Part shown: in pieces, positions 55,465 to 63,539 of the stretch
How positions within the stretch are numbered: the first letter of the stretch is position 1
Layout: every line of letters starts with the position of its first letter
Assembly: GCA_030123605.1 (NCBI GenBank)
Contig: CP126123.1
Span: 3,142,001 to 3,206,000 of the forward strand
Source of the DNA: Nitrospira sp.
GTDB lineage: Bacteria; Nitrospirota; Nitrospiria; Nitrospirales; Nitrospiraceae
Reading direction: 5' to 3'
DNA: 64,000 nt
Notes under the pieces: model-generated
Told to the model about the DNA's origin: nothing
Seen by the model: only the letters and a program-made list of their open reading frames with translations
Databases searched by the model: none
Made by a program: the position numbers and the translations under genes

Positions 55465-57582
55465 ATGAAACATGTTGTTGATATCGAACTGGCGGGTCGC
55501 CGCTTGACACTGGAGACCGGCCGTATTGCAAAGCAGGCGGACGGCGCGATCTGGGCGACCTACGGCGATACCGTCGTGCTCGCAACGGCCGTCGCGTCTC
55601 AAACCGTCAAGCCCGGCGTGGACTTTCTGCCGCTGACCGTGGATTACCAGGAAAAGACTTACGCCGCGGGCAAGATTCCCGGCGGGTATTTCAAGCGGGA
55701 GGGCCGTCCGTCGGAACGAGAAGTGCTCACCAGCCGATTGATCGATCGGCCGCTTCGCCCCCTGTTTCCCGAGGGATACTATTTCGACACGCAGGTCATC
55801 GCGTCGGTGTTGTCCGCCGACAAGAGCGGCGTGTCGGATGTCATCGGCATTATTGCGGCCTCCGCAGCGTTGGCGATCTCGCCAATTCCGTTCAACGGTC
55901 CGATTGCGGGCGTCAAGATCGGGCGTGTCAACGGACAGTTCGTGGTGAACCCCGACCTGGAGATTCTGGAAACCAGCGACCTCCACCTCGTGGTGGCAGG
56001 AACGGCGGACGCGGTGATGATGGTCGAGGCAGGAGCGAACGAATTGCCTGAAGCGACCATGTTGGAGGCCATCGAATTGGCGCACAGCGAGATCAAGCGG
56101 ATCGTCGCGAAGATCGAAGAATTGCGCGGACTGGCCGGCAGGCCGAAACGGACCGTGGAACAGGAGCCGATCGATGCGGCTCTGAGCGAACAGGTTCGTG
56201 CATTGGTGGCGGGGCCGATTCGTGAAGCCATCCTCATTCCAAACAAAAGTGCACGGCAGGAACGTCTGGACCAAGTGATGGCGGAGACGATCGAAAAGCT
56301 GAAGACCGACGATCCCAATCGAGCTCGGCATGTGAAAATCATTTTCCACGGCTTGGAGTATACGGAAGTCCGCAACATGATCCTCGAAAAGCGGGTACGC
56401 GCCGATGGTCGTGGCCCGGCGGACATTCGCCCGATCACCTGCGAAGTCGGAGTGTTGCCGCGCGCGCATGGCTCCGCCGTGTTTACCCGCGGAGAAACAC
56501 AGAGCCTGGCTGTGGTGACGCTGGGAACGACGGACGACGAACAACGGATCGACGCCTTGGAAGGTGAGTACATGCGCACCTTCATGTTGCATTACAATTT
56601 TCCGCCCTTCAGTGTCGGTGAGGCGCGGCCGCTCCGGTCGCCGGGGCGGCGTGAAGTTGGCCACGGAGCCCTCGCGGAGCGGGCGCTGAAGTCCGTCATC
56701 CCGGGCAAAGACACGTTTCCATACACGGTGCGGATTGTGTCGGAAATTCTGGAGTCGAACGGGTCGTCTTCCATGGCCACGGTCTGCGGCGGCACGCTGG
56801 CGCTGTTGGATGCGGGTGTTCCGATCAAGGAGCCGGTGGCTGGGATCGCGATGGGACTGATCAAGGAAGGGGATCAGGTTCTGGTTCTCTCCGATATTCT
56901 TGGATTGGAAGACCATCTGGGCGATATGGATTTTAAGGTGACCGGTACCAAGAACGGTGTCACAGCTCTGCAGATGGACATCAAGATCGGAGGGATTACG
57001 TCGGCGTTGATGCGTGAAGCGCTGGCTCAGGCAAAAGCCGGACGACTGCACATCCTCGAGCGGATGGCCCAGGCCCTGAACACTCCGCGGACCAAGCTGT
57101 CGGCCTTCGCGCCGCGGATATTTCCGATGAAGATCAAGCAGGACAAGATCCGTGACGTCATCGGTCCCGGTGGAAAAATGATCCGCAGCATCATCGCGGA
57201 GACCGGCGTGAAGATCAATGTCGAAGATACGGGCGATGTCACGATTGCCTCATCCGATGAGGCTTCGGCACAGAAGGCCATCGAGATGATCAAGCGCCTG
57301 ACCGAGGAAGTCGAGGTCGGTAAGATCTATCTGGGGACGGTACGAAAGATCATGGACTTCGGCGCTTTCGTCGAGGTGCTTCCCGGCACGGATGGGCTGG
57401 TGCACATTTCTCAGCTGGCCCACCATCGGGTCAAGGCGGTCTCCGACGAGGTCTCTGAGGGCGATCAGGTCATGGTGAAGGTGCTGGAAATCGATAAACA
57501 GGGGAAGATTCGTCTGAGTCGGAAAGAAGCGATGCCGGCGCCGGCCGGCTCTCCTACCACCGCGCCCACTCCGGCAGGATAA
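55465..57582 (+). CDS. pnp: Polynucleotide phosphorylase
   Basis: 3'-5' phosphorolytic RNase of 705 residues. Two RNase PH domains (TLETGRIAKQADGAIWATYGDTVVLATAVAS; PRAHGSAVFTRGETQSLAVVTLGT), a helical linker, a KH domain (IRDVIGPGGKMIRSIIAETGVKINVEDTG) and an S1 domain (GKIYLGTVRKIMDFGAFVEVLPGTDGLVHISQL). It degrades mRNA and may add tails, and is normally part of a degradosome. AAGGAG lies 9 nt before ATG 55465. The peptidase gene follows within 7 nt. Confidence 0.97.
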   Translation: MKHVVDIELAGRRLTLETGRIAKQADGAIWATYGDTVVLATAVASQTVKPGVDFLPLTVDYQEKTYAAGKIPGGYFKREGRPSEREVLTSRLIDRPLRPLFPEGYYFDTQVIASVLSADKSGVSDVIGIIAASAALAISPIPFNGPIAGVKIGRVNGQFVVNPDLEILETSDLHLVVAGTADAVMMVEAGANELPEATMLEAIELAHSEIKRIVAKIEELRGLAGRPKRTVEQEPIDAALSEQVRALVAGPIREAILIPNKSARQERLDQVMAETIEKLKTDDPNRARHVKIIFHGLEYTEVRNMILEKRVRADGRGPADIRPITCEVGVLPRAHGSAVFTRGETQSLAVVTLGTTDDEQRIDALEGEYMRTFMLHYNFPPFSVGEARPLRSPGRREVGHGALAERALKSVIPGKDTFPYTVRIVSEILESNGSSSMATVCGGTLALLDAGVPIKEPVAGIAMGLIKEGDQVLVLSDILGLEDHLGDMDFKVTGTKNGVTALQMDIKIGGITSALMREALAQAKAGRLHILERMAQALNTPRTKLSAFAPRIFPMKIKQDKIRDVIGPGGKMIRSIIAETGVKINVEDTGDVTIASSDEASAQKAIEMIKRLTEEVEVGKIYLGTVRKIMDFGAFVEVLPGTDGLVHISQLAHHRVKAVSDEVSEGDQVMVKVLEIDKQGKIRLSRKEAMPAPAGSPTTAPTPAG

Positions 57583-57588
57583 TTGATC

Positions 57589-58842
57589 GTGTATCGCAAG
57601 ATCGTCCTCGACAACCGGTTGCGTATTGTGGCGGAACATATCCCGACGTTGAAATCCGTCACGATCGGGATTTGGGTGAACGTCGGGTCTCGCGATGAGC
57701 AGGCGGGAGAAGAGGGGCTCTCTCATTTCCTGGAACACATGTTTTTCAAGGGGACGCGAAGCCGGTCGGCGACGCAGATTTCTCGCGAGATCGACGCACT
57801 GGGCGGGGAAATGAATGCGTTCACGACCCGTGAAACTACGACCTTTTACGTGAAGGTGCTGGATCAGCAATTGGAGACGGCCTTGGAACTGCTCTCCGAT
57901 CTGTTCTACCGTTCTCGCTTTGAATCCAAGGAGGTCGAAAAGGAAAAACAGGTAGTGCTCGAAGAGATTCGGATGGTTCAAGACGATCCGGAGGATCTGG
58001 TTCAGGAGCTCCACATGAAGCACATTCTGGGAAACCATCCGCTGGGTCGGCCGATCCTCGGACAGGCTCCGAGGATCCAGGCACTCGATCGAAACGATCT
58101 GCTGACGTATGTGCGGTCTCATTATGATCCGGAGCGGACGGTTGTGGCGGTGGCGGGCAACTTCACATGGAGACGTTTGGAGCAATTGTTGGCTCGATAC
58201 TTTTCCGGTTCGCATATGGGGCCGGCAGTCAAACCGAATCGCCGCCCGCCTGAAGTCAGGGGTGGGGTGTTGGTCCAGCGCAAGACGCTTGAGCAGGTCC
58301 ATCTCTGTTTGGGGCTGCAAGGCTTGGCCGCCGGGCATAAGGATCGTTATGCGGCCCACGCGCTCAATGGTGTGTTGGGAGGAAGTGTGAGCTCGCGGCT
58401 CTTTCAGGAAGTGCGAGAGAAGCGAGGCCTCGTCTATTCCATCTATTCCTATCTGTCCACCTATTCGGACGGAGGGATGATCACCGTCTACGCGGGCACG
58501 CGGCCGAAGGAAGTGGAGCGAGTCGTGGAAGTCGTCTGTCGAGAGCTCAAGAAGCTGCGCAGACATGGGGTTGATGCGAAGGATCTGGCCCGCGTCAAAA
58601 ACCAAATGAAAGGCAGTTTGATGCTTGGTTTGGAGAGTTCGCATAGCCGTATGAGCAAGCTGGCAAAAGATGAGTTGACGCAAAGTTGCCACGTGTCGTT
58701 GGAACAGATGACCGCGGAAATCGATCGCGTGACGATCGACCAGATCTTTCGTGTGGCACAAGACCTGTTTGACCAACATCGTCTTTCGATTACGGCGCTC
58801 GGGCCCATCTCGACGAAAAGCCTCCAGGGCTTCGCCCCCTAA
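57589..58842 (+). CDS. M16 family metallopeptidase
   Basis: Zinc peptidase of 417 residues of the processing-peptidase-like group. The inverted zinc motif is HFLEH (HFLEHMFFKGT) with the second Glu further on (ETTTFYVKVLDQQLETALELLSDLF...EEIRMVQDDPED). It has two M16 lobes, with GLVYSIYSYLSTYSDGGMITVYAG in the second. Genes of this type usually follow pnp in such operons. GTG 57589 (giving MYRKIVLDN) is the preferred start over TTG 57583, which follows the pnp stop immediately. Probably cytoplasmic, substrate unknown. Confidence 0.92.
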   Translation: MYRKIVLDNRLRIVAEHIPTLKSVTIGIWVNVGSRDEQAGEEGLSHFLEHMFFKGTRSRSATQISREIDALGGEMNAFTTRETTTFYVKVLDQQLETALELLSDLFYRSRFESKEVEKEKQVVLEEIRMVQDDPEDLVQELHMKHILGNHPLGRPILGQAPRIQALDRNDLLTYVRSHYDPERTVVAVAGNFTWRRLEQLLARYFSGSHMGPAVKPNRRPPEVRGGVLVQRKTLEQVHLCLGLQGLAAGHKDRYAAHALNGVLGGSVSSRLFQEVREKRGLVYSIYSYLSTYSDGGMITVYAGTRPKEVERVVEVVCRELKKLRRHGVDAKDLARVKNQMKGSLMLGLESSHSRMSKLAKDELTQSCHVSLEQMTAEIDRVTIDQIFRVAQDLFDQHRLSITALGPISTKSLQGFAP

Positions 58843-59209
58843 CAACCGCTTAACGAATGAGGGCATTTTAGCCTGGACCTTGAGAGAAGAGAGGCCTTAC
58901 GATTCTGCCGTATGAAGAGGCTAACTAACTGATAGTATAAGTGTTTGCCGGTTATGTTCGTGATGAAGTTTCGGCAAAACATTTTCTTGACACATTTCAT
59001 AGATTTCAGTACCATGACCGCGTTTTCGCTACCAAAGTCTGAATTTATTTCGACTGCATTACAGGGGAAGGTAAGCAGAGAGAAAGGGGGTGTGGGTCGC
59101 ACTTCCTCCTGCTAGCGCGTTCTCTGAATTTTGTTTTTTTGGCACTCTTTTTTGGATATTTAAGACTCACGGGTTCTCTAGCCATCATTTTTCCAAGGAG
59201 GGTAGGGTT
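58843..59209 (+). other. Long leader region before two secreted-protein genes, 367 nt
   Basis: No gene is supported here. The stretch is AT-richer than its surroundings and contains the promoter at 58987-59015. The 190 nt between its predicted start (about 59022) and ATG 59210 would be an untranslated leader; I see no strong hairpin in it. Confidence 0.5.
58987..59015 (+). promoter_or_regulatory. Strong sigma70-type promoter
   Basis: Perfect TTGACA (58987-58992), 17-nt spacer, TACCAT (59010-59015). Of the promoters seen in the window this has the best -35 and ideal spacing. Confidence 0.7.
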
Positions 59210-59722
59210 ATGAATAGGGTCGGAATTCTAGCCGCACTTGCAGTGTCCTCCGTTGTCGGCTTGCTGACCGCCGAGATTTCGGTGGCAGCCGATGCTCCAG
59301 CTGGAGGTGGGGTCAGCGAAATCATTACGGGCAGTGGAAAGGTTTTTAAGGGAGAGACCACCAACACCCTCAAGGGGCGTGTCTGGTCGCAGTGGGCGGA
59401 TAATCCTGACAATGAAATTCTTTTCGGTATTCAATACTGGAATACCGGTGAACCGGCATCCGGTGAAGGCGGTGGACGTTCGTCAACGCAAATGGAAGTC
59501 AAGCCGCCGGATCCTTTGTTCGTCTGCTGCGCCTGGGGCTTCACCGGCGGTACTGATAGGAACAATCCGTATGCCGGTTGGTACCATGCCGCAACCACTG
59601 TTCGGTTGGCCGTCAAGGATAAGAGCTTGATGGACCAGATCATCAAGGCGTCGCAGGAGCTCGTGGCGATGGAAGTGACGCTAGATGGTCGGACCATTAC
59701 TGGCTTTAAGGTTTTGAAGTAA
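59210..59722 (+). CDS. Secreted protein of unknown function (pair member 1)
   Basis: I do not recognise the family. Protein of 170 residues with a signal peptide (RVGILAALAVSSVVGLLTAEISVAAD). The mature part starts with GGGVSEIITGSGKVFKGETTNTLKGRVWSQW, has a loop of Gly/Ser, then FVCCAWGFTGG with a double Cys and NPYAGWYHAATTVRLAVKDKSLMDQII. AAGGAGG is 8 nt before ATG 59210. The TLKGRVW segment recurs as TLQGRVI in the next protein, so the two may share an origin. Probably strongly expressed from the promoter upstream. Confidence 0.7.
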   Translation: MNRVGILAALAVSSVVGLLTAEISVAADAPAGGGVSEIITGSGKVFKGETTNTLKGRVWSQWADNPDNEILFGIQYWNTGEPASGEGGGRSSTQMEVKPPDPLFVCCAWGFTGGTDRNNPYAGWYHAATTVRLAVKDKSLMDQIIKASQELVAMEVTLDGRTITGFKVLK

Positions 59723-59781
59723 TATTTATACGAGGGCGACGTTTTTTAGACTTTTTTGTCTTCTTTAAGGAGGATGCGATT

Positions 59782-60453
59782 ATGAAGCTTCAAAAGCAAG
59801 GGTGGTCTTTCATGGCTGCCGTGGCTCTTGTGGTAGGATTTGCCTCCACCGCGCTGGCCATTGAGGCATTCCAGGAGCGGTTTGAGTGGGGAGATTTGAG
59901 TAAGCCCACCACGCTGCAGGGGCGGGTGATCATTTTGGATCCTTATGATGAGGCGGTGTGGATCAATATCGCCGTGTTCGGGGGCAATGCCGAAAGCGGT
60001 CTGTTCTGGCAACGGATTCATCCAGGCAAGAACCTCAAGTTCTATCCTGCCGACAAGAATGTCTGGGAGCAGCTGAAGTCGATGGCGCGCCCGCATGCCG
60101 GACCAGCGGCTGCGAAAGAGGTTCCGCCTAGTTCCCCGACGACATTGGTTGAATTCGTGGCACAGGAAACCGAACAGAATCATCGGGTGATTTCTTCGGT
60201 CAAGAAGCTCAACGACAATGCCGGTGAGATGGGCAAAACGAAGAGCATTTCTTCACTTCGGTTGAAGGATTGTGAGGGAAAGACGGAAGCCGATGCGGCT
60301 TGCGCTGCAGCGAAGACAATGCTCAATACATCACCAAAGTCTCCTGATGGAGCCAACGTGCTGATGCAGTACGATGTGCTGTTGCCTAACGGCAAGCCGC
60401 TCGCCAACTTGATTCCTTGGACGGCTCAGTACAATCGAGGCGGTGGTCACTGA
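59782..60453 (+). CDS. Secreted protein of unknown function (pair member 2)
   Basis: Protein of 223 residues with a signal peptide (WSFMAAVALVVGFASTALAIE). Residues 27-95 are beta-rich (TTLQGRVIILDPYDEAVWINIAVFGG; GLFWQRIHPGKNLKFYPADKNVWEQL), the middle is Pro/Ala/Ser-rich and the rest includes a possible disulfide pair (LKDCEGKTEADAACAAAK) and a basic GNG-like tail ending in RGGGH. AAGGAGG is 9 nt upstream of ATG 59782. A strong terminator follows it, so it ends the transcript begun at 58987. No known domain. Confidence 0.7.
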   Translation: MKLQKQGWSFMAAVALVVGFASTALAIEAFQERFEWGDLSKPTTLQGRVIILDPYDEAVWINIAVFGGNAESGLFWQRIHPGKNLKFYPADKNVWEQLKSMARPHAGPAAAKEVPPSSPTTLVEFVAQETEQNHRVISSVKKLNDNAGEMGKTKSISSLRLKDCEGKTEADAACAAAKTMLNTSPKSPDGANVLMQYDVLLPNGKPLANLIPWTAQYNRGGGH

Positions 60454-60481
60454 TTTTTAACAAGCCATCGGCTTGAAAGAG

Positions 60482-60518
60482 AAGGCGGCGCTCCGAAAGG
60501 ACGCCGCCTTTTTCTTTG
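60482..60518 (+). terminator. Rho-independent terminator after the secreted pair
   Basis: AAGGCGGCG (60482-60490) pairs with CGCCGCCTT (60502-60510) around CTCCGAAAGGA, which itself can pair TCC/GGA; TTTTTCTTT follows. It also lies downstream of mutS on the other strand, and may serve both. Confidence 0.9.
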
Positions 60519-60553
60519 CTGAATTTTTGTGAGGGCACTGCTCGATATGCGTA

Positions 60554-63202
60554 TTACTCGCTCAACAGTCGTTGCTGAAGGGCCGCTAACCGATTGAGCG
60601 CATCCAGGGGGGTCATGGAGAAAAGATCCATTTGCCGGACCTCTTCAAGCAAGGGATGGGGAGTCGGCAAGGTCGCGTCGAATTGTAACGATTGTTGAGT
60701 ATCATCAAGTGGGCGAGAAGAGGATGTAGAGGATTCAAGTTGAGCCAAGACCGCTTTAGCTCGATGGATGATCGAATGTGGAAGACCGGCCAGTTGGGCC
60801 ACATGAATCCCGTAACTACGATCGGCCCCCCCGAGAATGATTTTTCGTAAGAACAGAACCTCACCGTCCCGCTCCTGCACAGCGACGCAATAGTTCGTAA
60901 TCCCTTCCCGCAAGCTTTCAAGTTGGGTCATCTCGTGATAGTGCGTGGCGAAAAGTGTACGTGCTCCGAGTCGGTGGGGATCATGGATGTATTCTGCGAT
61001 GGCCCATGCAATGCTGAGCCCGTCGTAGGTGCTCGTGCCGCGACCGATCTCGTCCAGGAGGATTAGGCTACGTGGTGTGGCGCAGTTGAGGATCTGGGCC
61101 GTTTCGGTCATTTCGACCATGAAGGTACTCTGCCCGCCGGCGAGGTTGTCGGAGGCACCGACCCTGGTAAAGATGCGGTCGACCAGTCCGATATGGGCCT
61201 CATTGGCCGGCACGAAACTTCCCATCTGCGCCAGCAGCGTGATGAGGGCGACTTGTCGAAGGTACGTACTTTTTCCTGCCATGTTGGGACCGGTCAGAAT
61301 GTGAAGGCGGCCGGCAGCAAGGTCTAGGTGCGTGTCGTTCGGGACGAACCCACCGGAGAGGTCGAGGCGCTCAATGACGGGGTGTCGGCCTTGAACGATA
61401 TGGAGGCCACTGCCTTCGTCCAGGATCGGGCGAACGTAACGATTGAGTGCGGCGATTTCCGCCAGGGTCGCCAGGACATCCAAGATGGCCAATCGGCGGC
61501 TAATATCTTGGAGGCGGGCCGTTTCCGTAGCCAATCGTACTCGGAGTGTTTCGAATAATTCTTGCTCCAGCGTCGTCAGTTTGATATCGGCGCCGATCAC
61601 ACGCTCTTCCAATTCTTTCAGTTCAGCAGTCATGAACCGTTCGGCATTGACCAGGGTTTGTTTCCGAATATAGTCTGGTGGAACCTTCCCAAGGTTGGCC
61701 TTCGTCATTTCAATGTAGTACCCGAAGACCTGGTTGTATCGGACCTTCAGCGAGTCGACTCCGGTGCGTGTGCGCTCCTTCACCTCCAGTCCGGCGATCC
61801 AGCTTTTTCCTTCACGACTCGCCTTGCGAAGCTCGTCCACTTCCGGGTGATAGCCGTCCTTCAGAATCCCTCCATCCCGCACCGAGATGGGTGCCTCCGA
61901 CACAATGGCTTGCTCGATCAACTCGTATAGATCCTGGGCGTTGTCCCACGCCGCCAAGAGATCCGTGAGGAGCGGGGCATGGAGTGCGGACAATCCGGCT
62001 TGAACCGCTGGAAGAGAGGAGAGTGAGCGTTTCAAGGCCACGATATCCCGCGGATTGGCGACGCCAAGAGACACTCTGCTGGAGAGGCGTGGAATATCCT
62101 GGACGGTCCGCAAAGCCGTCCGCAGGCGTATCCGTGCGTCGAGTTGATTCTTGAGGTCGTCGACCGCCGTGAGCCGAGCCTCGATTGGTGCACAGGTCAC
62201 AAGCGGATGCAGCAGCCACTCACGGAGCAAGCGGCCTCCCATGGCTGTAACGGTGCGATCCAAAACCTCCAACAGGGTATAAGTCTGCTGTCCTGGAAAT
62301 TCGTCAGCTCGGCCGGCAGGCCTGACGAGTTCGAGGTTGCGGATGGTGGTCGCATCCAGAGGCATCGCGTCATGACCATGTCTGACTCGTATCTGGCGGA
62401 TGTGGTCGAGCGAGGCGGACGGTTGTGTTTCCCGGACATAGCGCAGCACCGCCCCTCCGGCTTGAATTCCGAGTGAGAGACCCTGGCAACCGAAGGCTTC
62501 CAGCGAGTGGACACGAAACTGTGTCTGTAATCTGATGCGTCCTTCTTCCAGGTCGAACCAGGCAGCCGGTTGCGCACAGCACCGCGGTCCGACCACGTCT
62601 GCCGCCCAACGCAGTTCCTCAGGCGTCAGCCCTTCGGCAAACAACAATTCCTTCGGTTCGAGCCTGGTGAGTTCATCGAGAAGGGATCTCTGTGCCTGCG
62701 CTCCATGAAATTCGCTGATCCAATAGTCCCCGGTCGAGAATTCGAGCATGGCCAGCCCGAAAGACCGTTCCTTGCGTCCGGTGCCGACGGAACGAGACGA
62801 GACCGTCACTGCCGCCAACACGTTCGATTCGGCCGAGGTGAGGAATTCGCTGTCGATCAAGGTGCCGGGGGTGTAGAGCCGGACGACTTCGCGGCGTACC
62901 AGTCCCTTGGCGAGCTTGGGGTCTTCCACTTGCTCGCAGAGGGCGACGGTTCGGCCTGCATTGAGCAGTTTTGCAATGTAGTTGGTTGCGGCGTGGTGAG
63001 GGACACCGCAGAGGGGGATAGGGGTTTCACTGGATTTATTCCGTGATGTCAGCGCAATCGACAGGAGTTTGGAGGCTTCGACGGCGTCTTCATGGAACAT
63101 TTCGTAGAAGTCGCCGACGCGAAAAAATAGAATAGCGTCATGGTACACCTGCTTGATCTCACGATATTGCCGCATCAGCGGGGTGTCGTCGGCGTCACCC
63201 AT
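60554..63202 (-). CDS. mutS: DNA mismatch repair protein MutS
   Basis: Protein of 882 residues. The N-terminal mismatch-recognition domain has the FFRVGDFYEMFHEDA motif (Phe-x-Glu wedge in FYEMF). The ATPase has Walker A GPNMAGKSTYLRQ, Walker B LILLDEIGRGTSTYDG and the Ser/His motif ATHYHEMTQL. MutS finds mispairs and recruits MutL. ATG 63202 overlaps the stop of the lapA-like gene by 8 nt and has AAGGAG 8 nt upstream, which fixes the start. No mutL is in the window. Confidence 0.97.
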   Translation of the reverse strand: MGDADDTPLMRQYREIKQVYHDAILFFRVGDFYEMFHEDAVEASKLLSIALTSRNKSSETPIPLCGVPHHAATNYIAKLLNAGRTVALCEQVEDPKLAKGLVRREVVRLYTPGTLIDSEFLTSAESNVLAAVTVSSRSVGTGRKERSFGLAMLEFSTGDYWISEFHGAQAQRSLLDELTRLEPKELLFAEGLTPEELRWAADVVGPRCCAQPAAWFDLEEGRIRLQTQFRVHSLEAFGCQGLSLGIQAGGAVLRYVRETQPSASLDHIRQIRVRHGHDAMPLDATTIRNLELVRPAGRADEFPGQQTYTLLEVLDRTVTAMGGRLLREWLLHPLVTCAPIEARLTAVDDLKNQLDARIRLRTALRTVQDIPRLSSRVSLGVANPRDIVALKRSLSSLPAVQAGLSALHAPLLTDLLAAWDNAQDLYELIEQAIVSEAPISVRDGGILKDGYHPEVDELRKASREGKSWIAGLEVKERTRTGVDSLKVRYNQVFGYYIEMTKANLGKVPPDYIRKQTLVNAERFMTAELKELEERVIGADIKLTTLEQELFETLRVRLATETARLQDISRRLAILDVLATLAEIAALNRYVRPILDEGSGLHIVQGRHPVIERLDLSGGFVPNDTHLDLAAGRLHILTGPNMAGKSTYLRQVALITLLAQMGSFVPANEAHIGLVDRIFTRVGASDNLAGGQSTFMVEMTETAQILNCATPRSLILLDEIGRGTSTYDGLSIAWAIAEYIHDPHRLGARTLFATHYHEMTQLESLREGITNYCVAVQERDGEVLFLRKIILGGADRSYGIHVAQLAGLPHSIIHRAKAVLAQLESSTSSSRPLDDTQQSLQFDATLPTPHPLLEEVRQMDLFSMTPLDALNRLAALQQRLLSE

Positions 63203-63539
63203 CGGAAGGCTCTCCTTCCAGGTCGGTGACTGCCGAGGAGCCCATACGACGTGTGGCCTTATCGAGGGCCTGTCGGAGCCGTTCCAGATCCACTTCGGAT
63301 TCCTGCAGGGCCTTGGTTTTTCGTCGCAGTTCGATTCGCCCGCGTATCCAGGCGGGAAACAGCAATATTCCAGACACCAGCAGGCCGATCCCAAAGGCGG
63401 CTAGGATCGGTTTGTAGATCAGCGTCGAGGCGGATCGGAGGCCGAAAAAGTACCGCAGCGTCACTTCCTGCTCCTGGTTTTGCAGAAAAAACGCTAACGA
63501 GAGCAGCAGCAGGGTCCCCACCAATATCAACCGAATCAC
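63195..63539 (-). CDS. LapA-domain inner-membrane protein
   Basis: Protein of 114 residues with two transmembrane segments (LILVGTLLLLSLAFFLQN; PILAAFGIGLLVSGILLFPAWI) and a charged coiled-coil tail (RIELRRKTKALQESEVDLERLRQAL). This is the LapA (DUF1049) layout, named after a protein that tunes lipopolysaccharide assembly in E. coli. The start is GTG 63539, with AAGGAGG 8 nt upstream; its GTGA overlaps the tsaE stop by 4 nt. It overlaps mutS by 8 nt, so tsaE-lapA-mutS are translated in a row. Confidence 0.85.
   Translation of the reverse strand: MIRLILVGTLLLLSLAFFLQNQEQEVTLRYFFGLRSASTLIYKPILAAFGIGLLVSGILLFPAWIRGRIELRRKTKALQESEVDLERLRQALDKATRRMGSSAVTDLEGEPSDG

Follow-up and report, generated by a model that had tools for sequence, protein, structure and literature searches.

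Organisation of the locus

The window (the whole 64,000-nt stretch analysed; positions 3,142,001–3,206,000 of a 4.3 Mb single-contig genome, its genus shared with N. defluvii FP929003, G030) carries pnp, an M16-type peptidase gene and two open reading frames, P1 and P2, on the plus strand, followed by mutS on the minus strand (Table 1); M16-type peptidase and mutS are what we take these neighbours to be, by eye. P1 and P2 had been described, in an earlier sequence-only reading, as two exported proteins, and both open with Sec/SPI-type signal peptides as judged by eye; cleavage would fall between AEISVA and ADAP (P1) and between ASTALA and IEAF (P2).

Table 1. Features at the P1–P2 locus (window coordinates).
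Feature	Position	Strand	Remarks
pnp	55465-57582	+	upstream of M16-type peptidase
M16-type peptidase	57583..58842	+	neighbour, downstream of pnp
Promoter TTGACA-N17-TACCAT, sigma-70 type	58987..59015	+	conserved across the order, 118/121 distinct upstreams
Leader	59016..59209	+	194 nt, −10 end to ATG; conserved within genus
Shine-Dalgarno AAGGAGGG of P1	59195..59202	+	near-perfect
P1	59210..59722	+	170 aa; signal peptide and one predicted OB-fold domain
Shine-Dalgarno AAGGAGG of P2	59767..59773	+	near-perfect
P2	59782..60453	+	223 aa; signal peptide and predicted OB-fold; C-terminal extension more variable
Intrinsic terminator, hairpin AAGGCGGCG...CGCCGCCTT, U-rich tail	60482..60517	+	−28.0 kcal/mol, z −4.05 (60465-60520)
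mutS	60554..63394	−	neighbour, convergent

The strong terminator of the same reading is real: the region 60465-60520 was folded at −28.0 kcal/mol (z −4.05) and has a U-rich tail; a simple scanner did not pick it up. That P1 and P2 form one short transcription unit with a promoter and a terminator of its own is supported, and this anatomy, together with the lineage signature given below, is held with high confidence.

Promoter and leader

TTGACA-N17-TACCAT is the sole promoter-like match in 58000-61500; shuffles of this region yielded 1.6 such matches, and the promoter claim therefore rests on conservation. TTGAC[AT]-N16-18-TA[CG][CGA][AG]T was present in 118 of 121 distinct P1 upstream sequences (360 nt each), which bears out the promoter that had been proposed. 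The strict form, TTGACA-N17-TA[CG][CG]AT, was found in 80/121 upstreams vs 0/2,420 pair-shuffled ones; the shuffle preserves neighbouring bases only roughly, and the upstream sequences are related, so that they are not 121 independent events. The conserved element is accompanied by AAACATTTTC directly upstream of the promoter and by TTTCAG ahead of the −10 box; the 107 sites whose spacer measures 17 nt have the consensus aAAcAtTttCTTGACA...TTcAGTACCATggc. Throughout the genome the strict motif occurs at 11 sites (reversed control pattern: 0), nine of which, the P1 promoter included, have an ORF start within 350 nt; four of these ORFs resemble, by eye, the housekeeping or metabolic genes gcvH, mraZ, a urease subunit and recJ. 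The P1 promoter would thus be the organism's ordinary sigma-70-type promoter, unusually well kept.

Counted from the last base of the −10 box up to the ATG start codon, the leader comes to 194 nt, in keeping with the 190 nt given earlier. Leader-level regulation had been suggested as well, i.e., an attenuator or another RNA element in the leader of P1–P2 in at least some genera. Within the genus of the window leaders show 89% identity, with a consensus fold of −29.1 kcal/mol vs −19.5 kcal/mol after column shuffling (z −2.65); six sequences of group g2 gave −18.4 vs −4.4 kcal/mol (z −6.35). These two consensus folds make a genus-level RNA element possible, column shuffling being a lenient control. 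Three further groups gave z −3 to −15, but their consensus energies were no more than −1.2 to −5.8 kcal/mol; the remaining two of the seven groups compared gave no usable consensus-structure signal (for group g6b the fold test covered 7 of the 9 sequences). The single leader sequence gave a fold no more stable than those of its shuffles (z −0.5), no Rfam match was obtained at the gathering threshold in the whole window on both strands, leader length varies from 71 to 220 nt, and the only 8-base word common to all seven clade groups is the Shine-Dalgarno AAGGAGGG. An RNA element common to all clades is not supported, and a leader-regulated operon is regarded as very improbable.

Protein sequences

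The T-L-x-G-R-V motif said to be shared by the two proteins is indeed present, at residues 53–58 of P1 and 44–49 of P2. Alignments were made of 47 of the 122 distinct P1 and 47 of the 133 distinct P2 sequences; within the motif, L54, G56 and R57 of P1 and R48 of P2 are invariant. Invariant P1 residues further include W62, A63, N65, E69, F72, G73, Q75, Y76, W77, N78, G89, R90, P100, D101, W109, G110 and W124. CC-[AGS]-W-G was found in P1 of families f1 (103/103) and f3 (14/14), not in f2 (0/5), and a Cys-Cys pair in 117/122 distinct P1 sequences. In the f2 sequences read, mature P1 would start almost at the motif (ETLKGRIW), and the OB domain described below would thus be the core of P1.

Neither protein matches a family of Pfam, NCBIfam or PHROGs, in agreement with the earlier view that they belong to no known family. 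Pfam scans of the 47 aligned members gave scattered weak matches: CO_deh_flav_C for P1 (4/47, best E 0.0011), TatA_B_E (6/47, best 0.035) and DUF6152 (2/47, best 0.14) for P2. Sequence searches of solved structures with P1 and P2 returned nothing significant (best E 0.2). The profiles of P1 and P2 align weakly with each other (65 columns, prob 24.7, E 8e-4), which is no more than suggestive of a common origin. A second, weak P1 match in the same genome (L002) was dismissed as chance; two stops interrupt its frame, and a 734-aa ORF runs across it in a different frame. No description of the pair was found in the literature, as judged mostly from titles and the openings of abstracts, and locus tags estimated for the N. 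defluvii and N. moscoviensis orthologues returned 0 papers.

Predicted fold

AlphaFold models of the two proteins were weak (mean pLDDT 55.7 and 64.8); strands and helix were better, most core blocks reaching 70–87. The P1 model has strands 53–60, 69–74 and 129–135, helix 138–148, and strands 153–159 and 162–169, with a conserved, poorly modelled insert (76–128) that contains CC-A-W-G; the P2 model has strands 43–53, 58–63 and 83–89, helix 92–101, and strands 122–131 and 134–142. Both predictions give a five-stranded barrel with the order b1-b2-b3-alpha-b4-b5 that defines the OB-fold, and T-L-x-G-R-V is strand 1 of the predicted fold in each protein. SilF ranked first independently for each model (Foldseek, VIA): P2, Z 9.2 over 75 residues, rmsd 2.2, E 4.7e-4; P1, Z 9.6 over 70 residues, rmsd 2.4, E 9.0e-3. 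Many OB-folds were among the matches, with CusF at Z 7.2–7.4 for P2. To judge from these models, P1 and P2 very probably contain an OB-fold. OB-folds of unrelated function, among them LEF-3, SSBs and toxin B subunits, attain Z 7–8.5, and by the structure-comparison tool's own warning top scores of Z 7–8 are common; the SilF match therefore supports the fold and not the function. The second copy L183 and L165, which contains a run of N, were left out of the structure alignments.

SilF at the top of both lists, CusF for P2, and in P1 the invariant Trp124 and the Cys-Cys pair of 117/122 distinct sequences would suit Cu/Ag metal chaperones of the SilF/CusF kind. In SilF and CusF the metal is bound by His, Trp, Met and Met at one end of the barrel, according to PMC10656224. 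Against such a function, hhalign gave prob 0.5 and 0.1 with a profile of four CusF-type sequences (a Roseibium CusF-like piece, L214, whose reading frame was wrong, was left out of it), which is not significant, and a PF11604 scan of the genome gave three matches, none over the cut-off and none at the P1/P2 locus. In the same non-significant alignment the two Met ligands fall on Thr129 and Val131 of P1, P2 being unmapped; the Cys-Cys pair is missing from all five f2 P1 sequences, OB-folds with other functions reach Z 7–8.5, and no cus-type genes were seen in the 10 kb read. A chaperone role of this kind is accordingly considered quite improbable. CusF itself is given for 0–30.8% of nitrifier genomes in PMC13374858, the P1/P2 pair not being mentioned in the part of that paper available.

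Occurrence in the Nitrospirales

Among 98 genomes of Nitrospiraceae P1 was found in 93 and P2 in 96 (high-quality genomes: 79/80 and 80/80), each of them in 22/22 genera. Within the order, 108 of 117 genomes have a P2 match: f1 57/57, f2 8/8, f3 43/48 and f4 0/4, the nine misses being all four f4 genomes and five fragmented or contaminated f3 genomes; one f3 match counted here (G126: E 0.0047, internal stops) is at chance level. P1 was read in 5/5 f2 and 13/14 f3 main-locus stretches. The pattern suggests that f1, f3, f2 and f4 are Nitrospiraceae, UBA8639, NS-4 and UBA2166, respectively. In the phylum-wide search 56/198 genomes matched P2, all from f1 and f3, and the 20 genomes listed of the 142 without a match all lie outside the order; same-class genomes outside the order gave 0/9. 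P1 was not found in the stretches beside mutS of four f4 and six same-class genomes. The lineage specificity claimed in the sequence-only reading is thus upheld, the P2 matches of the phylum being confined to Nitrospirales.

In PMC12342949 the nitrite-oxidising machinery is placed in Nitrospiraceae, UBA8639 and NS-4, while nitrite oxidation is reported absent from UBA2166 (4 genomes), the only Nitrospirales family reported without nitrite oxidoreductase (NXR), and from other Nitrospiria. With the families equated as above, P2 is present in all three nitrifying families and was not found in the non-nitrifying Nitrospirales (f4, 0/4) or the other Nitrospiria sampled (0/9). Since P2 was not found in the sampled non-nitrifying relatives, the pair is a candidate part of the nitrite-oxidising lifestyle. 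The match of P2 and NXR amounts to a single event on a single tree; whatever other trait arose on the same branch would therefore fit equally.

NxrA was used directly for the comparison (E 1e-60; 93/117 order genomes), TIGR03479 having been dropped as a proxy since at most six candidates per genome were scored with it; with NxrA, under the same cap, scoring covered every candidate in most genomes, the whole of f4 included, and part of the candidates in a few. Both P2 and NxrA were found in 92 of the 117 genomes, P2 only in 16, NxrA only in 1, and neither in 8, all four f4 genomes included. The 16 genomes with P2 (among them G126, at chance level) but no NxrA match count against a role in nitrite oxidation; they may reflect either loss of NxrA or failure of assembly. 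NXR genes missing from many MAGs are put down to difficult assembly in PMC12342949. A single-contig Nitrospiraceae genome of 3.6 Mb (G073) contains P1 and P2, and NxrA was not found in it at E 1e-60. In the genome of the window the pair lies ~0.9 Mb from both nxrA copies.

Synteny

The order M16-P1-P2-mutS was read in 12 of 14 f3 main loci; of the two exceptions, one stretch ends before mutS and the other is broken by N, P1 not being seen. P1-P2-mutS was read in 4/5 f2 loci, M16 being undetected, and the fifth ends before mutS. An ORF profile search of the f4 stretches beside mutS gave no P1 or P2 (2/4 contigs end within 500 nt of mutS). In the same-class outgroup G338 the order is pnp-M16-(GGDEF-like gene, minus strand)-mutS and the pair is absent; no pnp or M16 was seen in the stretch beside mutS of the other five of six same-class genomes. 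On this one outgroup the pair appears to have entered the M16/mutS junction in the ancestor shared by the nitrifying families, either by insertion or in place of the GGDEF-like gene.

The intervening gene of G338 (L218 4215-5663, minus) has an NAD-binding-like start and a GAF/GGDEF-like remainder, by eye; ORFs starting in a similar way come after mutS in L219 and L220. A second, divergent P1-P2 pair is present in the f3 genome G142 (L183, 567-2313), its P1 copy lying within a 353 aa ORF.

Expression level

The pair had been taken for abundant envelope proteins specific to the lineage. Export and lineage specificity stand; abundance is unsupported, the codon usage of P1 and P2 being ordinary (codon adaptation ranks among 51 window ORFs: P2 23rd, P1 33rd). 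The test is weak and does not discriminate, because ribosomal proteins score alike. The ribosomal proteins of this genome (L208, L209, L211) have a codon bias no stronger than that of the average window ORF; tuf and nxrA of the same genome do show a stronger one (GC3 0.88 and 0.84).

Genome G165 is presumably that of N. moscoviensis; its P1 lies at 4,216,534-4,217,040, 92% along the chromosome. An exported protein of unknown function, NITMOv2_2496, is among the top N. moscoviensis transcripts beside nxrABC in PMC6606698. Its identity with a protein of the pair was considered and rejected: with tags numbered up to 4,539 at least, 2496 should lie near mid-chromosome, and the rejection holds if tags run along the record. 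nxrA, sought as a calibration of the tags, was not seen at 4.34–4.40 Mb of G165.

Proposed role

As a whole we tentatively propose, at a confidence short of probable, an OB-fold pair that was gained with the nitrite-oxidising Nitrospirales, has been inherited vertically and is accessory to nitrite oxidation. P1 and P2 would be a bicistronic pair of Sec-exported, soluble periplasmic proteins with predicted signal peptides and a predicted OB-fold, probably derived from one OB-fold ancestor. The pair, with its own housekeeping-type promoter, would have been gained at the convergent M16/mutS junction by the common ancestor of the nitrite-oxidising Nitrospirales and then passed on vertically, nearly always as a single copy. 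In the periplasm P1 and P2 may act together, as an accessory module (binding, delivery or assembly) of the nitrite-oxidising machinery there. A ligand or partner would most likely be bound at one end of the barrel, as SilF uses its barrel end, with the conserved Cys-Cys/Trp insert of P1 taking part.

NXR is located in the periplasm. Soluble periplasmic NxrC candidates, in keeping with that location, are described in PMC6606698. Distribution and compartment together point towards a tie between P1/P2 and nitrite oxidation, which we nevertheless consider doubtful. Still more specific, and unlikely, is the view that nitrite oxidation has in P1 and P2 two accessory components so far unrecognised, which would form a heteromer of OB-folds in the periplasm that arrived with nitrite oxidoreductase and helps to assemble, metallate, scaffold or electrically couple NXR.

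Constitutive periplasmic housekeeping OB-folds (envelope, quality control or stress), gained coincidentally on the same branch, are the rival reading: the promoter is an ordinary sigma-70 one of a type with an ORF start within 350 nt at 9/11 strict genome sites, P2 is retained in 16/117 genomes in which NxrA was not found, and the pair is unlinked to nxr. A universal role is less natural in view of the lack of P2 in 4/4 f4 and in the sampled same-class genomes, one of them with a related neighbourhood. General envelope proteins are quite possible, and this explanation and a role in nitrite oxidation are judged about as likely.

Nitrospirales rank among the chief nitrite oxidisers, and the complete ammonia oxidisers belong to the order as well. 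The proposed accessory pair is a compact, testable candidate for a missing part of the nitrite-oxidising machinery or of its periplasm. Even if it is only an envelope pair, it provides a marker of the group, and two proteins without a Pfam, NCBIfam or PHROGs family now have a predicted fold.

Comparison with known systems

Residues 30–142 of P2 are homologous to single-domain, exported-looking Nitrospirales proteins (L166-L172; hhalign prob 98.9, E 1.6e-17). These share with P2 the (T/R)-I-x-G-(R/K) strand and the exported appearance; unlike P2, they consist of a single domain (about 122–148 aa), no P1 partner was seen, and the kind is sporadic, 6 of the 98 family genomes carrying such a second, weak match. 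At L169, L170 and L172 the gene ahead of the short OB protein encodes an exported-looking protein containing SLFGVKLGDPESKA, and an ORF resembling a D-Ala-D-Ala-carboxypeptidase lies next to the OB gene in convergent orientation (both named by eye).

SilF and CusF (PF11604) are, like P1 and P2, small exported proteins with an OB-fold that has a helix between strands 3 and 4. P1 and P2 differ from them in being larger and in coming as a syntenic pair; sequence homology was undetected, the conserved His/Met metal site was not found, and RND pump genes were not seen in the 10 kb read.

In distribution the pair resembles a set of 140 genes that PMC12342949 (Table S12) puts forward as diagnostic of the nitrite-oxidising Nitrospirales and that likewise occur in the three nitrifying families and not in UBA2166 or other Nitrospiria; P1 and P2 may sit unnamed in that table.
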